Origin: Paracoccus spongiarum
GTDB lineage: Bacteria > Pseudomonadota > Alphaproteobacteria > Rhodobacterales > Rhodobacteraceae
DNA length: 64,000 bases
Assembly: GCF_030732095.1 (NCBI RefSeq)
Contig: NZ_JAVAMQ010000011.1
Span: 62,001 to 126,000, forward strand
Reading direction: 5' to 3'
Below, one piece after another: positions 54,596 through 64,000 of this stretch. Within the stretch, counting starts at the first letter, position 1, and each line of letters starts with the position of its first letter. A program made the translations under genes and the position numbers. Under the pieces are notes generated by a model that saw nothing but the letters and a program-made list of their open reading frames with translations, searched no databases and was not told where the DNA came from.

Positions 54596-56698
54596 ATGCG
54601 CCGGATCATCCACAACTCGACCGCGATTGCGGTGTGCCTTTCGATGCTGGCGCCGCATGTCGCGACAGCGCAGGCGCAGCTGCCCGTGACCCAGACGCAG
54701 CCCGCCGCCGGCGATGCGGCGGCCGACCTGCTGCTGGCTCAGGCCGGCGGCAACCCGCAACTGACCGAAGAGCAGAAGCTGAAGCGTCGCCAGGAACGCG
54801 CCGCCCGCCGCGAGGCCGGGAAGGACGGCGCCGCGCGGCCCGAGCGCGCCGAGAAGCGCCGCAACGAGCCCGCGCCGAAGGCGGCAAAGGACGATACGGC
54901 CAAGGATGGGCCCGGCGAACGCGCCCGCAAGGCGGCCGAGGCCGCCGAAAAGCCCGCCCGGAAACCCGAGGCGCGCAAGGCCGAACAGGAACCCGCCAGG
55001 CGCCCCGAACGCAAGGCCGAGGACCGCGAAGCCGGGAAGCGCGACCCCGAGCAGCGCGCATCCCAGCGTCCGGGCCGCGCCGAGCAGGCGCGCGACCACC
55101 CCTCGCAGGACCGCCCCGCCCGCCGCGCCGACGAGGCCCCGCGCCGAGAGAACCCACCCCGGCGCGATGCCCGCCCCTCCGAGGAGGATCTCGCGCGGCG
55201 CCTGGAACAGCGCCAGCGCGAGGATGACGAGCGCGCCCGGCGCGACGAGCGCCGCGAGGAGGCGCGTGACGACCGACGCCGCGATCGTGCGGCGCAGGTC
55301 AGCCTCGCCACATCGGCGGTGGCCCGCGACCGCACGGGCACCCTGCCGGGCCTGGGCAGCCTTGCGGACCGCGAGGTGGCCTCGGGGCTGACCGAGGACC
55401 GGCTTGCCTGCCTCTCGGGCGGGGTCGCGCCCTGCCGCGACGGGGATCTGTATGTCACGCCGCGCGGCGTCGTTCTGGAACGCAACCGCAACGGCGCCTA
55501 TCTGCTGGCCCCGGCCGCGCAGCAGATCTATCGCGTCGACCGCGATGGCCGCGTCGTCGATCGCCAGTCCGGCCGCGATGCGCGGATCAGCGAGGCAGCC
55601 CGCGAAGCCGCGCGCGAGACCCGCGCCGCGGCCAACGCCGCCGCGCTGCGCGAGGATCGCCAGCGCCGCCGCGACATCATCGAGCAGCGCATCACCGACC
55701 AGAATCGCCGCCGCTCGTCGCAGGACTTCCGCTACAGCCTCAATGAGGCGTGGCGCGAGGCCGAACGTCGGCAGCGCGGCGAGACGCGCTGGCAGGAGGA
55801 TGACGACGACGACCGCAGCGACCTGGTCAAGGCGCTGCTTCTGGGCCTTGGCGCGGTCGCGGTCGGCTCGATGCTGAACAATAACCGCCAGGTCGCGCTG
55901 AGCACGCCGGACCGGGTCGTGGTCACCCGCCCCGATGGCAGCCAGGAGGTCATCAAGGACGAGGTTGCGCTGCTGCGCCAGCCCGGCTCGACGGTGACGA
56001 CCGAGGAGTTCGACGACGGCTCGTCGCGGACCATCGTGACCCGGCCCGACGGCAGCAAGGTGGTGACCATCCGCGATGCGGACCTGCGCATCCTGCGGCG
56101 CACGCTGGTGTCGCCCGATGGCCGCACCACGCAGCTGATCGACGACACCGCCGAGGTCGCGCCGGTGGACGTGGCCACCCTGCCCGCGCCCGCGCCGCTG
56201 ACCGAATACGGCGCGGGGATGGACGAGGCCGCGCTGCGGGCGGCGCTGGCCCGCGAATCCGGTGTGGACCGCCGCTTCACGCTGGGCCAGATCCGCAACA
56301 TCAGCGAGGTGCGGTCGCTGGTCGCGCCGGTCGACATCGAGGCGATCACCTTCGACACCGGCTCCTCGGCAATCTCGCCCGACCAGGCGTCGCGGCTGTC
56401 GGGCCTCGGCGCCGTGATCGCCGATGCGGTCGCCGCGAACCCGCGCGAGATGTTCCTGATCGAGGGCCATACCGACACGGTGGGCCCCGATCCGATGAAC
56501 CTTGCGCTGTCGGACCGGCGGGCGGAATCGGTGGCCCTTGCGCTGACCGAGTATTTCGACGTGCCGCCCGAGAACCTTGTGGTCCAGGGCTATGGCGAAC
56601 AGGATCTGAAGATCCGCGCCGATGGTGACATCCGCGACAACCGCCGCGCCTCGGTGCGCCGGATCACCGACCTGCTGCGCACCGCCGAACTGCAATAG
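54596..56698 (+). CDS. Large OmpA-family protein with Arg/Glu/Ala-rich linker
   Basis: A 700-residue envelope protein. The signal peptide (AVCLSMLAPHVATAQ) is followed by about 200 residues of Arg/Glu/Ala/Lys-rich, likely disordered sequence, then a beta-rich middle with repeated VTRPDGS motifs. The last 120 residues are an OmpA domain (FDTGSSAISPDQASRLSGLG and FLIEGHTDTVGPDPMNLALS) that binds peptidoglycan. AAAGGAG precedes ATG 54596. It probably ties the outer membrane to the wall; the charged linker is unusual. A hairpin terminator follows. Confidence 0.85.
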   Translation: MRRIIHNSTAIAVCLSMLAPHVATAQAQLPVTQTQPAAGDAAADLLLAQAGGNPQLTEEQKLKRRQERAARREAGKDGAARPERAEKRRNEPAPKAAKDDTAKDGPGERARKAAEAAEKPARKPEARKAEQEPARRPERKAEDREAGKRDPEQRASQRPGRAEQARDHPSQDRPARRADEAPRRENPPRRDARPSEEDLARRLEQRQREDDERARRDERREEARDDRRRDRAAQVSLATSAVARDRTGTLPGLGSLADREVASGLTEDRLACLSGGVAPCRDGDLYVTPRGVVLERNRNGAYLLAPAAQQIYRVDRDGRVVDRQSGRDARISEAAREAARETRAAANAAALREDRQRRRDIIEQRITDQNRRRSSQDFRYSLNEAWREAERRQRGETRWQEDDDDDRSDLVKALLLGLGAVAVGSMLNNNRQVALSTPDRVVVTRPDGSQEVIKDEVALLRQPGSTVTTEEFDDGSSRTIVTRPDGSKVVTIRDADLRILRRTLVSPDGRTTQLIDDTAEVAPVDVATLPAPAPLTEYGAGMDEAALRAALARESGVDRRFTLGQIRNISEVRSLVAPVDIEAITFDTGSSAISPDQASRLSGLGAVIADAVAANPREMFLIEGHTDTVGPDPMNLALSDRRAESVALALTEYFDVPPENLVVQGYGEQDLKIRADGDIRDNRRASVRRITDLLRTAELQ

Positions 56699-56724
56699 GT
56701 ACACGTCTCGCGCCGAGACGACGA

Positions 56725-56755
56725 AAACGCCCGCGGCCATGCCGCGGGCGTTTGC
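56725..56755 (+). terminator. Rho-independent terminator after the OmpA-family gene
   Basis: A long stem around AACGCCCGCGGC and GCCGCGGGCGTTT with an A-rich start and T-rich end lies 30 bp past the stop. It can work on both strands. Confidence 0.75.
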
Positions 56756-56784
56756 CGTTCTCGCCCGTCCCCCCGAGCAGGGGC

Positions 56785-56952
56785 CAGAATCAGGTCGGGC
56801 AGGAAGGTCGCGACCTGCGGGAACATCGCCAGCATGGCCGCAAAGCCGATCGTGATGAGCAGCAACGCAAAGGTCACGCAGGCGACAAGCGCCGTGCTGC
56901 GGCCGGTGATGTTCGGGATCACCGCGACGGTGAAGGCGACCGGCGGCGTGAC
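56785..56952 (-). pseudogene. TRAP transporter large permease (DctM) fragment
   Basis: About 55 codons of a membrane protein: VTPPVAFTVAVIPNITGRST, then LLLITIGFAAMLAMFPQVAT and FLPDLIL. This is the C-terminal helix pair of DctM-type TRAP permeases. The sequence upstream does not continue the family, and downstream the frame runs on with no family-like end, so only a fragment remains. Confidence 0.6.
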
Positions 56953-57399
56953 CTGCGCCCATTTTGAAGCGGACAACGACGCGCCCCATCTGCGGACGGC
57001 CGACCCGACGACCTGCATTGGTCCCGCGAAGTCGCTGAACCCCTGTCGGAACAGGACGCCCCGATGGCCGCCGCCGAAGCGTGCGGCGCGGGCCTCGTGC
57101 ATCCGGGCCATGGCTTCCCGTCCGCGCGGGCGGTCCTCGCCGGGGCACTCACGGCTGCGGGCCGTCTGCGGGTTGTCCCCACCCTTCGGATCATGGCGAT
57201 GGCGGAGGAGAGACGGTGCCCATGAGGGGACGAACCTTGCCCGGTGGTGGCCATCACCGGCCTGTCGGTGGACTGGCCGGCGCGGTGCCACGCGACACCC
57301 GGATACGCGGTCTTTGCGGTCGGCAGCCGTCCGGGATACTGCTGTCTCGGCACTCTGGACCTGCGCGTTCAGACGCCGCGGCGCATGGTGCTGATGGCC

Positions 57400-58266
57400 C
57401 GCCCGGCGACCGGCCCGCTGACGGTCGCAAGATCTCGGACCGGGGGTCTCGGCCTCGGCGGGGCAACGCGGCTGGAATCCCGGCGGCAGCGCAGATCGGC
57501 ACCTCCTCGATCCTGCGCAACACCGCCTTGCCCCCGTTCGAGCGGCGTCACGCTGAGACCCGCCACGCTGGACGCCGCGATCACCCCCGCGCGCAGCTGG
57601 GTGATCCTGAAGTCGCCCTCTCACCCGACCGGCGCGGCCTGTGCCGGGGCCCAACTGCGCGGCCGGGGCAAGGCGCTGCTGCGCCAACCGCAGGTGCCGG
57701 TCCTCTGCAGCGAGGTCTGCGACCGCATCTGGCATGCCGATTTCCCGCCCTGCGCCATAATTGGCGCTGCGGCCGCAGGCGCTGGTGGTCAATCGTGCGT
57801 CGACAAGTCCCGCGATGACCGGCCGACGGATCGGCCATGCCGCGGGACCGCGCGGCCTGATTGCCGCGATCAGCAGGCTGCAATCGCAGATGTCGTCCTG
57901 CCCCTCATCGATCAGCCAGGGGGCGGCCTTTGCGCCGACTGTCGGAGGGCCGAACTTGCGGGGTCCGCCGAGGTCTATCGGCAGCGCCGCGCCCGCGGCC
58001 ACGGCCTGGTCAACGCCAGACCCGGCCTGCGCAGCGGCCTGCCGAACCGCGCATTCCATCTCTATCCGTACGGCGCCAGCCTGATCGGCAAGACCGAGCC
58101 CGACGGCACGCCGCTGCGGACCGATCCGGATGTCAGCATCTATCCGCCAGACGAGGCCGGGATCGCCCCGGCCCATCGCGGAGCCGATGGGCTTGGACCC
58201 CATCTCCGAATCTCGACCGGCACCTCCAGGGAGCTCGTCGAGGCGGCCCGCGCAAGGCCGCGCTGA
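57400..58266 (+). pseudogene. Degenerate class I/II aminotransferase
   Basis: Pieces in different frames resemble an aspartate-type PLP aminotransferase. TLDAAITPARSWVILKSPSH with PTGAA matches the usual TLDAAI..TK.LILNSPSNPTGA region, and VPVLCSEVCDRIWHADFPPC the cofactor region. After a frameshift, TGRRIGHAAGPRGLIAAISR and LQSQMSSCPSSISQ appear, then a further shift leads to LRSGLPNRAFHLYPYGASLI. The PLP-lysine motif (usually SKAYAMTGWR) is destroyed by the shift near 57780. The N-terminal part cannot be traced with confidence; sequence 56953-57399 shows no gene I can name. Confidence 0.7.
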
Positions 58267-58324
58267 TGGCGCCGCCCGGCCCGTGCCGCAGGTTGACAGC
58301 GGGACCGGACGCGATGCGACGATC

Positions 58325-59152
58325 TCAGGCCGCGAGACCCAGGATCGCCCGCGCCTCGGCCGGGGTCGCGACCGGGCGTTCGTGGCGGGCGCAGATCGCC
58401 GCCGCGCGGCTGACCAGCGCGGCATTCGACGGCGCAAGCCTGTCGCGGTCCAGCCGCACATTGTCCTCGAGCCCGGTGCGCACATGGCCGCCCGCGCCGA
58501 TCGACCATTCGTTCAGGGTGAGCTGCTGCGGCCCGATGCCCGCGGCGCACCAGGGCGCATCCGGCCCGAACAGCCGTGCGACGGTGCGCACATAATAGTC
58601 GAACACGTCGCGATCAGCCGGCATGGCGTTCCTGACGCCCATCACGAACTGGATGTAGGGCGTACCCGCAAGCCGCCCGTCATCGGCCATCCGCTTTGCC
58701 TGAAGGATGTGGGACAGATCGAAGGCCTCGATCTCGGGCTTGACGCCATGCGCCAGCATCTCGCCGGCCAGCCAGTCCACCAGCTCGGGCGGATTCTCGT
58801 AGACCCGGCCCGGGAAATTGTTCGAGCCGACCGACAGCGACGCCATCTCGGGTCGCAGCGGCAGCATGGCGCCGCGTTCGCGCCCGGCGCCCGAGCGGCC
58901 GCCGGTGGACATCTGCACGATGAGGCCCGGACAATGGGTGCGCAGCCCCTCCATCAGCCGCGCAAAGCGGTCGGGGTCCGAACTGGGCCGGCCCTCGTCG
59001 TCGCGGACATGACAATGGGCGATGCTGGCCCCGGCCTCGAAGGCTGCGTGGGTGGATTCGACCTGTTCGGCGATGGTGATCGGGACGGCCGGGTTGTTGG
59101 CCTTGGTCGGAAGCGAGCCGGTGATGGCGACGCAGATGATGCAGGGGGTCAT
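58325..59152 (-). CDS. Beta-keto acid cleavage enzyme (BKACE)
   Basis: A 275-residue TIM-barrel enzyme of the DUF849/BKACE family, which splits a beta-keto acid with acetyl-CoA into acetoacetate and a new acyl-CoA. His46 and His48 in SIAHCHVRDD and Glu229 in RTGLEDN match the zinc ligands of the Kce prototype at almost identical numbers; the Glu at Kce position 14 is replaced (TGSLPTK), as in a common subfamily. ATG 59152 is chosen to fit homologues; ATG 59173 is possible and neither has a clear ribosome site. It is last in the benzoate operon, next to an enol-lactonase. Confidence 0.88.
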   Translation of the reverse strand: MTPCIICVAITGSLPTKANNPAVPITIAEQVESTHAAFEAGASIAHCHVRDDEGRPSSDPDRFARLMEGLRTHCPGLIVQMSTGGRSGAGRERGAMLPLRPEMASLSVGSNNFPGRVYENPPELVDWLAGEMLAHGVKPEIEAFDLSHILQAKRMADDGRLAGTPYIQFVMGVRNAMPADRDVFDYYVRTVARLFGPDAPWCAAGIGPQQLTLNEWSIGAGGHVRTGLEDNVRLDRDRLAPSNAALVSRAAAICARHERPVATPAEARAILGLAA

Positions 59153-59223
59153 GGCAGGGTCCAGCGTTGGCATGGTGAAAAGGGGTGCGGGGCGGGCCGG
59201 TCCAGGGCGGCATCGCGGCGGCC

Positions 59224-60012
59224 TCAGCCGCCCGCCTGCAGGAAGTCCCGCAGGGTGGCGGTGAAGCGCGCCGGGGCCTCGAGGTTGACGATATGCCGGC
59301 CAGGCAGCGACAGATGTGCGCCCTGCTGGACAGCCTCGGCGATCGCCTGCAACTCGGCCGGCGGGCAGACCGGGTCATCCTCGCCCGAGATCGCCAGCAG
59401 CGGACATGCGATCCGCGCGATCTGGTCGCGCAGATCGGCCCCCGCCAGCGCGGCGCAGCAGCCGACGTAGCCCTCGGCCGGGGTGGCGGCGAAGCCGGCC
59501 AGGATGGCCTCGGCCTCGGCCGGCCGGGCGGCACGGAAGGCCGGCGTCAGCCAGCGTTCGGCGGTGGCAGACAGCAGCCCCTGCAGGCCATGCGCGGCGA
59601 CCTCGTCGATCCGCGCCCGCCAGGCATCGGCGCTGCCGATGCGCGCGGCGGTGGCACAGACCACCATCCGCCCGATCCGCTCCGGGGCGTGGATGCCCAG
59701 CCATTGCCCGGTAAGCCCGCCGATCGAGAGGCCGCAGAAATGGCTTTGCGCGATCCCCAGCCCGTCCCACAGCGCGATCACGTCGCGCCCCAGGTCCCCA
59801 AGAGCAGGGAGCGTATCCGGCCTGCCCGAGCGGCCGTGGCCGCGCCGGTCGTAGCGAAGGATGCGAAAGCCATCCGACAGCCCCGCGATCTGCGCATCCC
59901 ACATGTGAAGGTCGGTGCCCAGCGAGTTGCAGAAGGTCAGCCAGGGTCGGTCGTCCCCGGCGCCGTCGATGCGATAGTGAAGCCGGTGGGTCGGCAGGTC
60001 CAGATGAGGCAT
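59224..60012 (-). CDS. pcaD: 3-Oxoadipate enol-lactonase
   Basis: A 262-residue alpha/beta hydrolase. TFCNSLGTDLHMWDAQIAGL, RYDRRGHGRSGRPD and the nucleophile Ser96 in CGLSIGGLTGQWLGIHAPER are typical of PcaD, which opens 3-oxoadipate enol-lactone to 3-oxoadipate. The final His lies in SLPGRHIVNLEAP. It lies in the ben cluster between the transporter and the BKACE gene, which fits catechol-branch degradation. The start ATG 60012 follows AGGAACG. Confidence 0.9.
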   Translation of the reverse strand: MPHLDLPTHRLHYRIDGAGDDRPWLTFCNSLGTDLHMWDAQIAGLSDGFRILRYDRRGHGRSGRPDTLPALGDLGRDVIALWDGLGIAQSHFCGLSIGGLTGQWLGIHAPERIGRMVVCATAARIGSADAWRARIDEVAAHGLQGLLSATAERWLTPAFRAARPAEAEAILAGFAATPAEGYVGCCAALAGADLRDQIARIACPLLAISGEDDPVCPPAELQAIAEAVQQGAHLSLPGRHIVNLEAPARFTATLRDFLQAGG

Positions 60013-60072
60013 GATCGTTCCTGAAGGAAAGTGGGCGCGCGGCCGGTCGCCGCGCGCCACGGGTGGCCGGGC

Positions 60073-61404
60073 TCAGGCCGGGGCCAGCCGCGTCGCGTCG
60101 CGGTTGCCCGAATTCGCCAGGGCAAAGACCAGCATCGCCACGGCCGACACGGCGGCAGGGATCGCGAAGATCAGGAAGTTCTGGCCCAGCGGCAATTCGC
60201 GCGCCAGCAGCACCCCGCCAAGGGTCGGCCCGACGATGGCGCCGATCCGGCCCACGCCCGAGGCCCAGCCCAGCCCGGTCGACCGGACCGACAGGTTGTA
60301 AAGCTGCGCCACGCTTGCATACAGCAGGATCTGCGTGCCGATGGTGGTGGCGCCGGCGACGAAGACCAGCAGGAACAGCATCCCCGGCCCCGGATTGGTC
60401 CCGATCATCGCGATCGACAGGGCAGCCGCCGCGAAATAGCCCACCACGATCCTGGGCAGGCCGAAACGGTCACCCAGCCGGCCGCCCGCGATGGCGCCCG
60501 CCATGCCGCCGAAATTCAGCGAGAACAGCGACAGAAGGCTGGCGCGTTCGGCATAGCCCGCCTCTTGCAGCACCTTGGGCAGCCAGGACGACAGCAGGTA
60601 GACCAGCAACAGGCAGCAGAAGAAGGACAGCCACAGCATCAGCGTGCGCAGCGTGCGCCCGTGACGGAACAGTTCGGCGATCGAGGCCGACGCGCCCTTG
60701 GCCTCGCTGAAGGTCAGCCGGTCGTCGGCGGCCAGCGGCGTGGCCGGGTCGATCCGGGCAAAGATGCGCCGGGCCTCGTCCTGCCGGCCCTGGCGGATCA
60801 GGAAGCCCAGGGATTCGGGCAGCTTCCACAGGATCAGCGGCAACAGCAACAGCGGCACCGCGGCGACGAAGAACATCGGCTTCCAGCCATAGCTGGGGAT
60901 GATCCCGATCCCCATGCCGGCCGCGACCATGCCGCCCACCGAATAGCCCGAGAACATCAGCGCCACCATCGTGCCGCGCAGGCGCCTGGGGGCGTATTCG
61001 TTCATCAGCGCCACGGCGTTCGGCATCAGCCCGCCGCAGCCAAGCCCGGCGATGAAGCGGAAGATCTTGAACTGCTCGGGCGAGGTGGCGAAGCCGGTCA
61101 GCAGGGTCGCGGTGGTGAACAGCAGGAAGCTGATGGCGATGCCCTTCTTGCGGCCGATCCGGTCGGCCAGCGGCCCCAGCACCAGCGCCCCGAACATCAT
61201 CCCGAACAGCGCCCAGGCCTGCAGCGCGCCGGCCTGCGGCTTGGTCAGGCCCCATTCCGCGATCAGCGTCGGCAGCACGGTGCCGGCGACGAACACGTCG
61301 TAGCCATCGACCACCAGCAGCGCGCCGCAGAGCGCCACCACCATCCACTGAAAGCGGCCAAAGCGGCCCCGGTCGATGGCCTCGTTCACATCAATGCTGC
61401 GCAT
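60073..61404 (-). CDS. benK: Aromatic acid:H+ symporter (AAHS, BenK/PcaK-like)
   Basis: A 443-residue MFS transporter with twelve predicted helices. The motif DGYDVFVAG in the first helix and LGPLADRIGRKKG in the loop between helices 2 and 3 are typical of AAHS members, which take up benzoate, 4-hydroxybenzoate and related acids with protons. The cluster makes benzoate the likely substrate, hence the symbol; specificity is inferred from neighbours. It is followed by pcaD after 60 bp. Confidence 0.86.
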   Translation of the reverse strand: MRSIDVNEAIDRGRFGRFQWMVVALCGALLVVDGYDVFVAGTVLPTLIAEWGLTKPQAGALQAWALFGMMFGALVLGPLADRIGRKKGIAISFLLFTTATLLTGFATSPEQFKIFRFIAGLGCGGLMPNAVALMNEYAPRRLRGTMVALMFSGYSVGGMVAAGMGIGIIPSYGWKPMFFVAAVPLLLLPLILWKLPESLGFLIRQGRQDEARRIFARIDPATPLAADDRLTFSEAKGASASIAELFRHGRTLRTLMLWLSFFCCLLLVYLLSSWLPKVLQEAGYAERASLLSLFSLNFGGMAGAIAGGRLGDRFGLPRIVVGYFAAAALSIAMIGTNPGPGMLFLLVFVAGATTIGTQILLYASVAQLYNLSVRSTGLGWASGVGRIGAIVGPTLGGVLLARELPLGQNFLIFAIPAAVSAVAMLVFALANSGNRDATRLAPA

Positions 61405-61448
61405 TGTCTTCCTCTCCCTTCTTCGGTTCTGTGCGAATGGACATGCCG

Positions 61449-62234
61449 TCAGCCAAGGTCGCCTCCCGCGACGGGCAGGACGGTGCCGGTGATGTAGGAG
61501 GCCTCGTCCGAGGCCAGGAACAGGATCGGCGCGGCCTGTTCCTCGATGCTGCCATAGCGGTGCATGAAGGCCGACTGGCGGACCTGGTCGACGACCTCGG
61601 CCATCCAGGCTTGCTCGCGCGGGCTGTCGCCCTCGGCATTGCGCGGAATGCGGCGGGGCGGCGCCTCGGTTCCCCCGGGCGCGGTGGCCACGACGCGGAT
61701 GTTCTGCCCCGCCAGTTCCATCGCCAGTGACTGGGTGATCGCATTCACTCCGCCCTTGGCCGCCGAATAGGGCACGCGGTGGATGCCGCGGGTGGCGTTC
61801 GACGAGACGTTGACGATGGTCCCGCCGCCGCGCGCGGCCAGATGCGGCAGCACCGCCCGGCAGCAATACAGTGTCGGCATCAGCGAGCGGCGGATCTCGG
61901 CGTCGATCTGGTCGGGCTCGAATGCGGCGAAGGGGCGCATGCGGATCGCGCCGCCGACATTGTTGATGAGGATGTCGACGCCGCCGAAGCGGTCGGCGGC
62001 GTGGCCCATCGCGGCCTCGGCCCCCTGCCAGGTCTCGAGATCGGCGGTGACGGCCGCCGCCTCGCCGCCGGCCTCGGCGGCGACCTCGGTCACGAAATCG
62101 GCGCGGTCCACGAACAGCACCCTGCCGCCCTCGGCCGCCGCGCGCAGGGCGACGGCGCGACCGATCCCCTGCGCGGCCCCGGTCACGACCAGCACCTTGC
62201 CGGCAAAGCGGCCGGGAAAGACCGCGGCGCTCAT
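61449..62234 (-). CDS. benD: Benzoate cis-diol dehydrogenase
   Basis: A 261-residue short-chain dehydrogenase. TGAAQGIG is the NAD-binding motif, LINNVGGAI the core strand, and Tyr in VPYSAAKGG the catalytic Yx3K. It oxidises and decarboxylates the benzoate diol formed by BenABC to catechol with NAD+. The start ATG 62234 overlaps the benC stop (ATGA), so it is coupled to the dioxygenase. Function follows from motif plus position. Confidence 0.93.
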   Translation of the reverse strand: MSAAVFPGRFAGKVLVVTGAAQGIGRAVALRAAAEGGRVLFVDRADFVTEVAAEAGGEAAAVTADLETWQGAEAAMGHAADRFGGVDILINNVGGAIRMRPFAAFEPDQIDAEIRRSLMPTLYCCRAVLPHLAARGGGTIVNVSSNATRGIHRVPYSAAKGGVNAITQSLAMELAGQNIRVVATAPGGTEAPPRRIPRNAEGDSPREQAWMAEVVDQVRQSAFMHRYGSIEEQAAPILFLASDEASYITGTVLPVAGGDLG

Positions 62235-63259
62235 GCGCTGGCCTTCAGCGGCGCGTTTGGCGTGAACTTCTCGTAGTGGAAGCTGGCCGGGCGGATGCCG
62301 TCGTCGTCCAGGTAGTGGCGGACGGCATCGACCATCGGCGGAGGACCGCACAGGTAGACATCGACCTCGCCCGCGGCCAGCATGTCCTCGGGCATGTGCT
62401 GGATGACCCAGCCCTTGCGCGGGTGGTCCGAGGCCGGATCGGCCACCACCGTCGCGAAGGTGAAGTTCGGCAGCCGCGCGGTAAAGGCCGCGATCTGATC
62501 GACCAGCACCAGGTCCAGATCGCGGGTCACGCCGTAGATCAGGTGGATCTGGCGGCGCGATCCGGCGCGCGCCAGAACCTCGAGCATCGACAGGAAGGGC
62601 GCAAGCCCGGTGCCGCCGGCCAGGAACAGCAGCGGCCCCTCGCCCTCGCGCAGATAGAAGCTGCCCATCGGCCCGGTCAGTTCCAGACGGTCGCCGGCGG
62701 CGGCCCGCGCCAGCCAGTTGCTCATCAGCCCGTCGGGGATCTTCTTGATGAGAAACCCCAGATCGCGGTCGCCCGGCGCGGTGCTGAAGGAATAGGAGCG
62801 GTGATCGCCACTGCCCGGCACGGCGATGTTGACATACTGGCCGGGCAGGAAGCCGGGCGCGGTCGCCCCCTCGTCGATGGCCAGTTCCAGCACCACGGCC
62901 GCGTCGTGATGCGGCGCGATGCGGGTGACGGTGGCCGCGATCGTCTGCTGGCCGGTCTTGCAGGACGCGGCCGTCACAGGCACCGACAGCACGCAATCCG
63001 AGGACGGCACCATCTGGCAGGTCAGCACCAGCCCGCCCCGGGCCTCGTCCTCGGTCAGGGCGTCGTCGATATACTCGTCGCCCAGGTCATAGCTGCCGCT
63101 TTCGGCGCGGCATTTGCAGGTACCGCAAACGCCGTCCGAACAGTCCATCGGCAGGTTGATCTTGTTGCGGAACGCCGCGTCAAGGATCTTCTCGCCGGGC
63201 TTGCAGTCCACGAAGCGGGTCACCCCGTCCTCGAAATTCAGCGCGATCGTATAGCACAT
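62231..63259 (-). CDS. benC: Benzoate 1,2-dioxygenase reductase component
   Basis: A 342-residue one-chain reductase: an N-terminal plant-type [2Fe-2S] ferredoxin with CSDGVCGTCKC and a fourth cysteine in VLTCQMV, an FAD domain (RSYSFSTAPGDRDLGFLIKK), and an NAD domain (FLAGGTGLAPFLSMLEVLAR). It passes NADH electrons to the BenAB oxygenase. AGGAGG precedes ATG 63259. It lies 40 bp after benB. Confidence 0.95.
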   Translation of the reverse strand: MCYTIALNFEDGVTRFVDCKPGEKILDAAFRNKINLPMDCSDGVCGTCKCRAESGSYDLGDEYIDDALTEDEARGGLVLTCQMVPSSDCVLSVPVTAASCKTGQQTIAATVTRIAPHHDAAVVLELAIDEGATAPGFLPGQYVNIAVPGSGDHRSYSFSTAPGDRDLGFLIKKIPDGLMSNWLARAAAGDRLELTGPMGSFYLREGEGPLLFLAGGTGLAPFLSMLEVLARAGSRRQIHLIYGVTRDLDLVLVDQIAAFTARLPNFTFATVVADPASDHPRKGWVIQHMPEDMLAAGEVDVYLCGPPPMVDAVRHYLDDDGIRPASFHYEKFTPNAPLKASA

Positions 63260-63299: not shown

Positions 63300-63815
63300 T
63301 CAGACGTGATAGACGTCGATGACCTGGCGGATGTAGTCGTTCTTCAGCACGATCTTCTTCGCGGCGATGCGCAGCCCCTCGCCGGTCTGGCGCAGGGTCA
63401 CGAACATCGTCCCGAAGAACTGGTCGGTGGTCTTGTAGCGGTGGTTGAGGGTGTGGAAGTTGTAGCGGACATCCACCTCGGCGCCGCGATCGGCCAGCAC
63501 CTCGACGTTCTGCACCGCATGGCTGGTGCGCGGTTCGGGCGTCGATGCACCCGAGCGTTCGGTCTTGATGCGGAAGACGCGATCCTCAAGCCCCTCGCGG
63601 TTCGGGTAGTAGATCAGCGAGATCTCGGATTGCGGGTCCTCTGTGGTCTGGTCGTTGTCGTCCCAGGCCGGCATCCAGTAGGAGGCGTCGGGCGCATAGC
63701 AGGTCAGCCATTCATCCCACTGCCGGTCGTCCAGCAGGCGCGCCTCGCGATAGAGAAAGGCGCAGATGGCGTGATGGTCGATGCCCGCGCGGGCGGTGTC
63801 GTGATCCAGGCTCAT
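63300..63815 (-). CDS. benB: Benzoate 1,2-dioxygenase small (beta) subunit
   Basis: A 171-residue beta subunit of a Rieske ring-hydroxylating oxygenase: AICAFLYREARLLDDRQWDE, CYAPDASYWMPAWDDND and LNHRYKTTDQFFGTMFVTLR are family segments. It stabilises the alpha3beta3 enzyme and does not carry the metal sites. The ATG 63815 overlaps the benA stop (ATGA). Choice of benzoate over related acids follows from benC and benD. Confidence 0.94.
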   Translation of the reverse strand: MSLDHDTARAGIDHHAICAFLYREARLLDDRQWDEWLTCYAPDASYWMPAWDDNDQTTEDPQSEISLIYYPNREGLEDRVFRIKTERSGASTPEPRTSHAVQNVEVLADRGAEVDVRYNFHTLNHRYKTTDQFFGTMFVTLRQTGEGLRIAAKKIVLKNDYIRQVIDVYHV

Positions 63816-64000
63816 GCTGCTTCTCCCGTGTTCTGACCGGCTTTCTCGGCGGCAAGCGCCGCGCGCATCACGCCGGCCCAGTGTTCGTGCTGGCAGACGA
63901 ACAGCCCCTCGTCCTCGCTGCGTTCGCCCGACATGACCGGGTTCAGCCCCATGCGGCGGGCGTTCTCGTCCGGGCCATGCACCCACAGCGGCGCGCCGCG
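63812..64000 (-). CDS. benA: Benzoate 1,2-dioxygenase large (alpha) subunit, C-terminal end
   Basis: The last 62 codons of the catalytic subunit enter from the right window edge: LWVHGPDENARRMGLNPVMS, then EDEGLFVCQHEHWAGVM, as in the C-terminus of BenA. The Rieske and mononuclear iron domains are outside the window. It is the first recognisable gene of the leftward ben operon. Confidence 0.85.
   Translation of the reverse strand, partial: RGAPLWVHGPDENARRMGLNPVMSGERSEDEGLFVCQHEHWAGVMRAALAAEKAGQNTGEAA

Follow-up and report, generated by a model that had tools for sequence, protein, structure and literature searches.

BKACE as the likely last dedicated enzyme of the catechol branch in a Paracoccus genome that carries a second copy in the protocatechuate branch

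The idea that a BKACE enzyme ends the 3-oxoadipate pathway is already in print, and the genome analysed here adds another instance. In the passages of PMC6449761 that deal with Ralstonia eutropha H16, catBCD and a COG3246 gene lie under CatM/BenM, and the COG3246 protein of this catechol regulon is proposed as a beta-ketoadipate cleavage enzyme; this betaproteobacterium thus likewise has a BKACE-family gene in its catechol/benzoate regulon, whereas our genome differs in having one run that also takes in ben genes and a major facilitator (MFS) gene, and in having a second, protocatechuate copy. The excerpts of PMC8963497 and PMC12379598 on Methylobacterium describe pca operons with a BKACE gene (kce) and without pcaIJ or pcaF, the gene being proposed for their step; in nearly every strain kce is flanked by pcaG and pcaB, as at the second locus of our genome, but it serves the protocatechuate branch only, whereas our genome has it in the catechol branch too. 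A summary of Bastard et al. 2014 in PMC4922564 places beta-ketoadipate among the substrate groups. To these accounts we add two branch-specific copies in one genome, swapping of the gene between branches, a link to scoA, and a proposed re-reading of mutant data from Roseovarius.

The window, a 64,000-nucleotide stretch of Paracoccus spongiarum DNA (positions 62001-126000 of contig C3), carries on its minus strand at 58325-59173 an open reading frame of 282 residues that matches PF05853 over the whole domain (model 1-274 of 274; 320.5 bits, cut-off 24.8; E 1.1e-95), which is where the first-pass annotation had placed a BKACE; the pcaD that it had named alongside is also where it said, at 59224-60012 on the minus strand (3-oxoadipate enol-lactonase, 262 residues; TIGR02427, 313.3 bits, cut-off 255.85). 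The E-values rule out chance for both family matches. Two starts are possible for the BKACE, at 59173 or 59152. The protein scores 484.1 bits against NF053568 (cut-off 350), the NCBIfam equivalog named '3-oxoadipate:acetyl-CoA acetyltransferase', the annotation of which probably rests on Bastard et al. 2014, and it fails to reach the Kce equivalog of lysine fermentation (249.6 bits, cut-off 382). From the two profile matches and residues aligned to Kce, we annotate it as a predicted 3-oxoadipate:acetyl-CoA acyltransferase. Both copies in this genome lie more than 130 bits above the NF053568 cut-off and keep the metal and catalytic residues, and in the features compared (score, metal ligands, catalytic residues) we found no difference between them and this family (BKACE, PF05853, DUF849/COG3246).

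Zinc ligands had been claimed at His46, His48 and Glu229; these residues are present, and, because that numbering counts from Met8, they are His53, His55 and Glu236 of the 282-residue frame. The nearest solved structures are 3fa5, whose alignment covers residues 5-280 of 282, 3chv and 3no5, all deposited without a named function, with Kce (2y7d) fourth. Aligned to Kce, Ser89, Glu149, Arg232 and Asp237 pair with Ser82, Glu143, Arg226 and Asp231, which we take to be so numbered and to be catalytic in that enzyme. Among 82 aligned BKACEs, His53, His55, Ser89, Arg93 and Glu149 are invariant, Arg232 and Asp237 are kept in 81 and Glu236 in 80. The window protein thus has in common with Kce its family, its metal ligands and these presumed catalytic residues, and differs not only in failing the Kce equivalog but at two positions: the counterpart of Kce Glu14 is Leu21 (all 82 aligned BKACEs have Leu or Val there), and Arg93, four residues past Ser89, pairs with an Ala in Kce. 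These differences may bear on substrate charge, and Arg93 may bind the far carboxylate of 3-oxoadipate.

The operon in which BKACE lies begins beyond the window, and we read its start from the same contig. On the minus strand the order is catB, catC, catA, benA, benB, benC, benD, the MFS gene, pcaD and BKACE, with a divergent LysR gene at the top (C3 129983) whose nearest match is BenM (264.8 bits, far below the cut-off of 600). The part from benA to catB, which runs on past the window, occupies C3 125812-129821 on the minus strand, where catA (449.9 bits, cut-off 392), catB (548.3, cut-off 334.95) and catC (145.8, cut-off 130.6) all score above their cut-offs. All on the minus strand of the window itself are the 3' end of benA (63812-64000, the gene continuing past the window; TIGR03229, 726.9 bits, below the cut-off of 780.95), benB for the small subunit of benzoate 1,2-dioxygenase (63300-63815; TIGR03232, 256.2 bits, cut-off 225.55), benC for its reductase (62231-63259; NF040810, 545.4 bits, cut-off 430), benD for the benzoate diol dehydrogenase (61449-62216; NF040811, 438.6 bits, cut-off 380) and an MFS transporter nearest the aromatic acid:H+ symporter family (60073-61437; TIGR00895, 377.1 bits, below the cut-off of 418.55). 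Gaps of 60 bp and 50 bp separate the MFS gene from pcaD and pcaD from BKACE, respectively.

The first of these gaps holds a hairpin with 10 bp of all-GC stem (60034-60058, minus strand), picked out by a terminator-site scan and by shuffle folding, in which its z was -2.53 and 3 of 200 shuffles folded equally well; terminator-like sites in the stretch numbered 5 against 2.2 expected. This strong hairpin is a possible terminator or attenuator that could end or attenuate the ben transcript ahead of pcaD-BKACE, so that pcaD and BKACE may or may not be co-transcribed with the rest. Downstream of BKACE, a frame at 57244-58266 on the plus strand matches the PF02682 carboxyltransferase domain over residues 3-67 only (E 7.6e-8). 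The five open reading frames in 56590-58550, between BKACE and the next gene, yielded nothing beyond this 65-residue match, and the fragment is probably the remnant of a decayed gene.

We then looked for the classical end of the pathway in the rest of the genome, a draft of 3.93 Mb in 93 contigs that is 99.93% complete. A search for pcaF, a check that the first-pass annotation had suggested, came out in favour of its reading: no gene in this draft scored above the TIGR02430 cut-off of 597. The best scorer, at 404.4 bits, is a BktB subfamily thiolase (658 bits, cut-off 565); the other two full-length thiolases reach 291 and 268 bits, and two pieces of about 120 residues, one of them near the end of contig C3, reach 85.5 and 83.7 bits. 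These pieces may be cut genes, and their score per residue is like that of general thiolases. The companion search for pcaIJ gave a mixed answer: there is none in the operon, yet of the three PF01144 CoA-transferase matches in the genome, two form an adjacent pair on contig C89 that scores above the joint pcaIJ/scoAB model cut-offs, models that cannot separate pcaIJ from scoAB, so absence is not clean. The third match is a 640-residue gene nearest FadX and below the FadX cut-off. By their sequences, a candidate for acetoacetate activation and candidate thiolases are thus present.

We consider it likely that BKACE completes the catechol branch as its last dedicated enzyme, acting on 3-oxoadipate with a ScoAB-type transferase and a thiolase downstream. 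PcaD would open the enol-lactone to 3-oxoadipate; the zinc-dependent BKACE would condense this with acetyl-CoA and cleave the condensation product to give succinyl-CoA plus acetoacetate; the acetoacetate would receive the CoA of succinyl-CoA through the ScoAB-type CoA-transferase; and two acetyl-CoA would result from the action of a general acetoacetyl-CoA thiolase. We infer the substrate, the products and the use of the enzyme in vivo from sequence. The bypass suggested by the first-pass annotation holds up as far as BKACE standing in for pcaIJ and pcaF within the operon and 3-oxoadipate as its substrate are concerned; its one enzyme in place of three does not, because a CoA-transferase and a thiolase, to be supplied from other parts of the genome, are still required to deal with acetoacetate. 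The standard reactions add up, for either route, to 3-oxoadipate + CoA -> succinate + acetyl-CoA, and the BKACE route therefore brings no saving in CoA balance. The same inventory could be read in the classical way, with the C89 transferase acting as PcaIJ, BktB or another thiolase acting as PcaF, and BKACE as an accessory or overflow enzyme. The scores of the C89 pair against the joint models would suit this arrangement; the pair, however, adjoins topA, with no recognised aromatic gene nearby, and on all the evidence considered here we regard a classical end through general enzymes as unlikely.

The second BKACE gene lies in a protocatechuate cluster in the order pcaQ-pobA-pcaD-pcaC-pcaH-pcaG-BKACE-pcaB, where it would play the same role. 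Its product scores 487.7 bits against NF053568 (cut-off 350), and the genes of the cluster are above their equivalog cut-offs except pcaB (332.7 bits, cut-off 355.75). The genome therefore has a separate pcaD and a separate BKACE for each ring-cleavage branch; identity is 75.2% between the BKACE proteins and 40.5% between the pcaD products.

In some relatives, the two branches carry far more similar copies. We found BKACE in cat or cat/ben clusters of four congeners, G020 (L178), G226 (L237), G260 (L239) and G292 (L249, with one in-frame TGA), and outside the genus in G117 (L199). The catechol and protocatechuate copies of G226 are 98.4% identical in DNA and 99.6% in protein, its pcaD copies being at 76.1%, and those of G020 are 95.6% and 98.5% identical. 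These blastn matches, of 861 bp in G226 and 852 bp in G020, cover the BKACE gene and some 10-30 bp of flanking sequence; apart from these, blastn links the clusters only through pcaD of G226, at 77.9%. The branch copies of G117 and G292 are older, at 75.9% and 79.6% identity. In a quick tree of 116 rows, catechol-branch BKACEs fall in at least four places, many forks being weakly supported; the G292 copy is absent from it, a start-motif filter removed 18 of the 95 family loci and 4 genus loci, and repeated sequences were entered once. The copying in relatives, recent in some of them, is, like the genes, their families, residues and order, the two copies and the absence of pcaF above cut-off, read from the sequence. 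With catechol-branch copies in at least four places of the tree and some branch copies near-identical, BKACE was recruited to the catechol branch, or overwritten there, on more than one occasion. In one such operon, that of G020 (L178; C11 722500-738500), BKACE follows the MFS gene with no pcaD found between them, and the only pcaD match of that genome sits in its pca cluster.

This swapping amounts to a natural test of the substrate of the enzyme. The only intermediates common to both branches are the enol-lactone and 3-oxoadipate, and of these only 3-oxoadipate is a beta-keto acid; a near-identical BKACE ending both branches favours this shared intermediate, and the swapping thus points to 3-oxoadipate as the substrate. 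The repeated occurrence of BKACE in the operons of the two branches, and its copying between them, also argue against an accessory role beside a classical end. We met no earlier description of such swapping in the literature examined. The enzyme might instead serve mainly another beta-keto acid, for example the substituted 3-oxoadipate that a substituted benzoate would yield, given that the BKACE family is promiscuous according to the part of PMC4922564 that covers it and that relatives lie beside other intradiol dioxygenases at 8 of 95 loci. We think this very improbable, since the protein matches the NF053568 equivalog and a single genome has near-identical copies for both plain branches, catechol and protocatechuate.

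A ScoAB-type step downstream of BKACE gains from a second kind of neighbour. At 4 of 95 family loci, no more than 160 bp separate BKACE from the start of a scoA-like gene (82-86%), and at a fifth pcaB lies between; the same spacing occurs at 8 of 80 named loci, which are the best 80 of 576 matches and lean to close relatives, with a ninth again having pcaB between. In Bradyrhizobium STM 3809 (L077), BKACE-scoA-scoB faces pcaD-benDCBA, that pcaD being 39% identical to the one in the window. The scoA-like pair beside BKACE could equally read as pcaIJ, as the joint models do not decide; nevertheless, scoA directly adjoining BKACE in other genomes fits acetoacetate as the substrate and counts against a classical end. 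Removal of acetoacetate could matter, because this compound inhibits a different BKACE, from Paracoccus denitrificans (IC50 1.45 mM in the assays excerpted from PMC11961710).

To place the locus in its family, we surveyed 120 Rhodobacteraceae genomes (119 genera) and the rest of the class at one genome per family. NF053568 BKACEs occur in 84 of 120 family genomes (97 copies) against 2 of 93 outside, so the textbook pathway may end differently across a large family, and, if so, mutants and annotations for which PcaIJ and PcaF are taken for granted could be misread. Above its cut-off, pcaD occurs in 98 of 120 family genomes and 22 of 93 outside; genes above the pcaF model cut-off occur in 74 of the 120, and pcaF-model genes in 18 of those 22. 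Within the family, pcaD is present in 76 of the 84 BKACE genomes and 22 of the 36 others (p 0.0005; p-values in this survey are descriptive, as the genomes are related), and 24 genomes have BKACE and pcaD without a pcaF-model gene above cut-off. Of the 97 BKACE copies, 26 have pcaD within 3.2 kb; of the 78 pcaF-model genes, 0 have it within 15 kb. The contexts of the 95 family loci, that is, the 97 copies minus the two of our genome, comprise 50 with pcaH/G within 8 kb, 2 with cat/ben genes, 8 with another intradiol dioxygenase, 3 with pcaD/C/B only and 32 with none of the aromatic genes tested; such context counts skip weak BenC and regulator hits and mostly also matches under 40-50% of query length (the 29 genus loci excepted), and contig ends truncate several of the loci. 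The 29 genus loci are those of 61 matches that yielded a new locus, and, like 20 further hand-picked stretches, they give no rates; the named and unnamed sets overlap (L168 is likely L048, and L186 likely L057).

We considered, as a proof of the route, whether BKACE and PcaF exclude each other; the 120 family genomes do not support this (p 0.10), and neither do the 98 pcaD genomes when scored for pcaF-model genes away from paaA (25 of 76 with BKACE, 9 of 22 without; p 0.61). TIGR02430 also catches phenylacetate-pathway thiolases, with 36 of 78 family matches within 15 kb of paaA (as seen also at L104-L111) and a pcaF-model gene in 55 of 56 paaA genomes, and for this reason these genes are a poor control. 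The two are neighbours in the congener G284 (L252 5652-9988), where a PcaR-type regulator is followed by pcaI, pcaJ, pcaF (702 bits, cut-off 597) and BKACE. At L082 and L101 the pca cluster that holds BKACE also has a pcaF-like gene (83% and 69% identical to the L252 one), and at L240 such a gene (93%) lies about 9 kb away from BKACE; a 44% match occurs in 1 of 95 family loci, and none was seen in the short stretches of the 29 genus loci. The reading of BKACE as a replacement, which the first-pass annotation had advanced, hence fits the window operon and does not hold everywhere, since elsewhere the gene can adjoin pcaF. That a complete pcaIJF can stand beside BKACE lends some weight to BKACE as an addition to a classical end; pcaF beside BKACE favours 3-oxoadipate as the substrate, yet also shows that the two routes can coexist.

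The remaining argument for a classical end comes from mutants of Roseovarius nubinhibens, as given in the portions of PMC12442348 cited here. A 'pcaI', a CoA-transferase chosen by alignment, was needed for growth on 4-hydroxybenzoate, although the mutant still consumed some; pcaF and another thiolase were singly dispensable, and loss of both lowered the final density; other enzymes or routes were found able to complement the two. The authors favour a third thiolase, of beta-oxidation, with expression up in the mutants, and such thiolases are proposed as substitutes for pcaF; the words BKACE, DUF849 and acetoacetate are absent from the main text. The mutant result fits the BKACE route too. If R. 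nubinhibens has a BKACE, a scoA mutant would lose acetoacetate and spend succinyl-CoA remaking acetyl-CoA, and its expected phenotype, little or no growth with partial consumption, would match the one in those portions of PMC12442348. Two other Roseovarius records (L074, L087) have BKACE between pcaG and pcaD-pcaB; by that same account R. nubinhibens has pcaB and pcaIJ away from its pca cluster, a differing layout that counts against the re-reading. Tentatively, and at somewhat less than an even chance, we propose that much of the Rhodobacteraceae ends the pathway through BKACE, ScoAB and a general thiolase for acetoacetyl-CoA, that the 'pcaIJ' of R. nubinhibens is a ScoAB with acetoacetate as its substrate, and that its pcaF is dispensable through BKACE rather than thiolase crosstalk. 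As for the BKACE next to pcaD in the window, the feature is real and was correctly read, and its interpretation is probably correct.

Some relatives occur in other surroundings. At L052 (9117-10831), L177 (7717-11219) and L180 (7491-9205), BKACE overlaps the gene of another intradiol dioxygenase, below the catechol model cut-off in L052 and L177, the two that were scored, and no pcaD was seen. An aromatic-ring FAD monooxygenase comes next in L177, with a similar frame in L052, and by eye no maleylacetate reductase was recognised at the three loci; maleylacetate is itself a beta-keto acid, and if it is what their dioxygenase produces, BKACE might use it directly as a substrate. Near BKACE at L154 (7529-12897) and L217 (6654-11464) are genes for an intradiol dioxygenase and an alpha/beta hydrolase, together with one resembling that of muconate cycloisomerase (506 bits in L154; recognised by eye in L217), perhaps a branch for substituted catechols. 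At L170 (7575-9476), the genes that come after BKACE are those of a malonic semialdehyde reductase (NF003768, 272.8 bits against a cut-off of 152) and of a YCII-domain protein.
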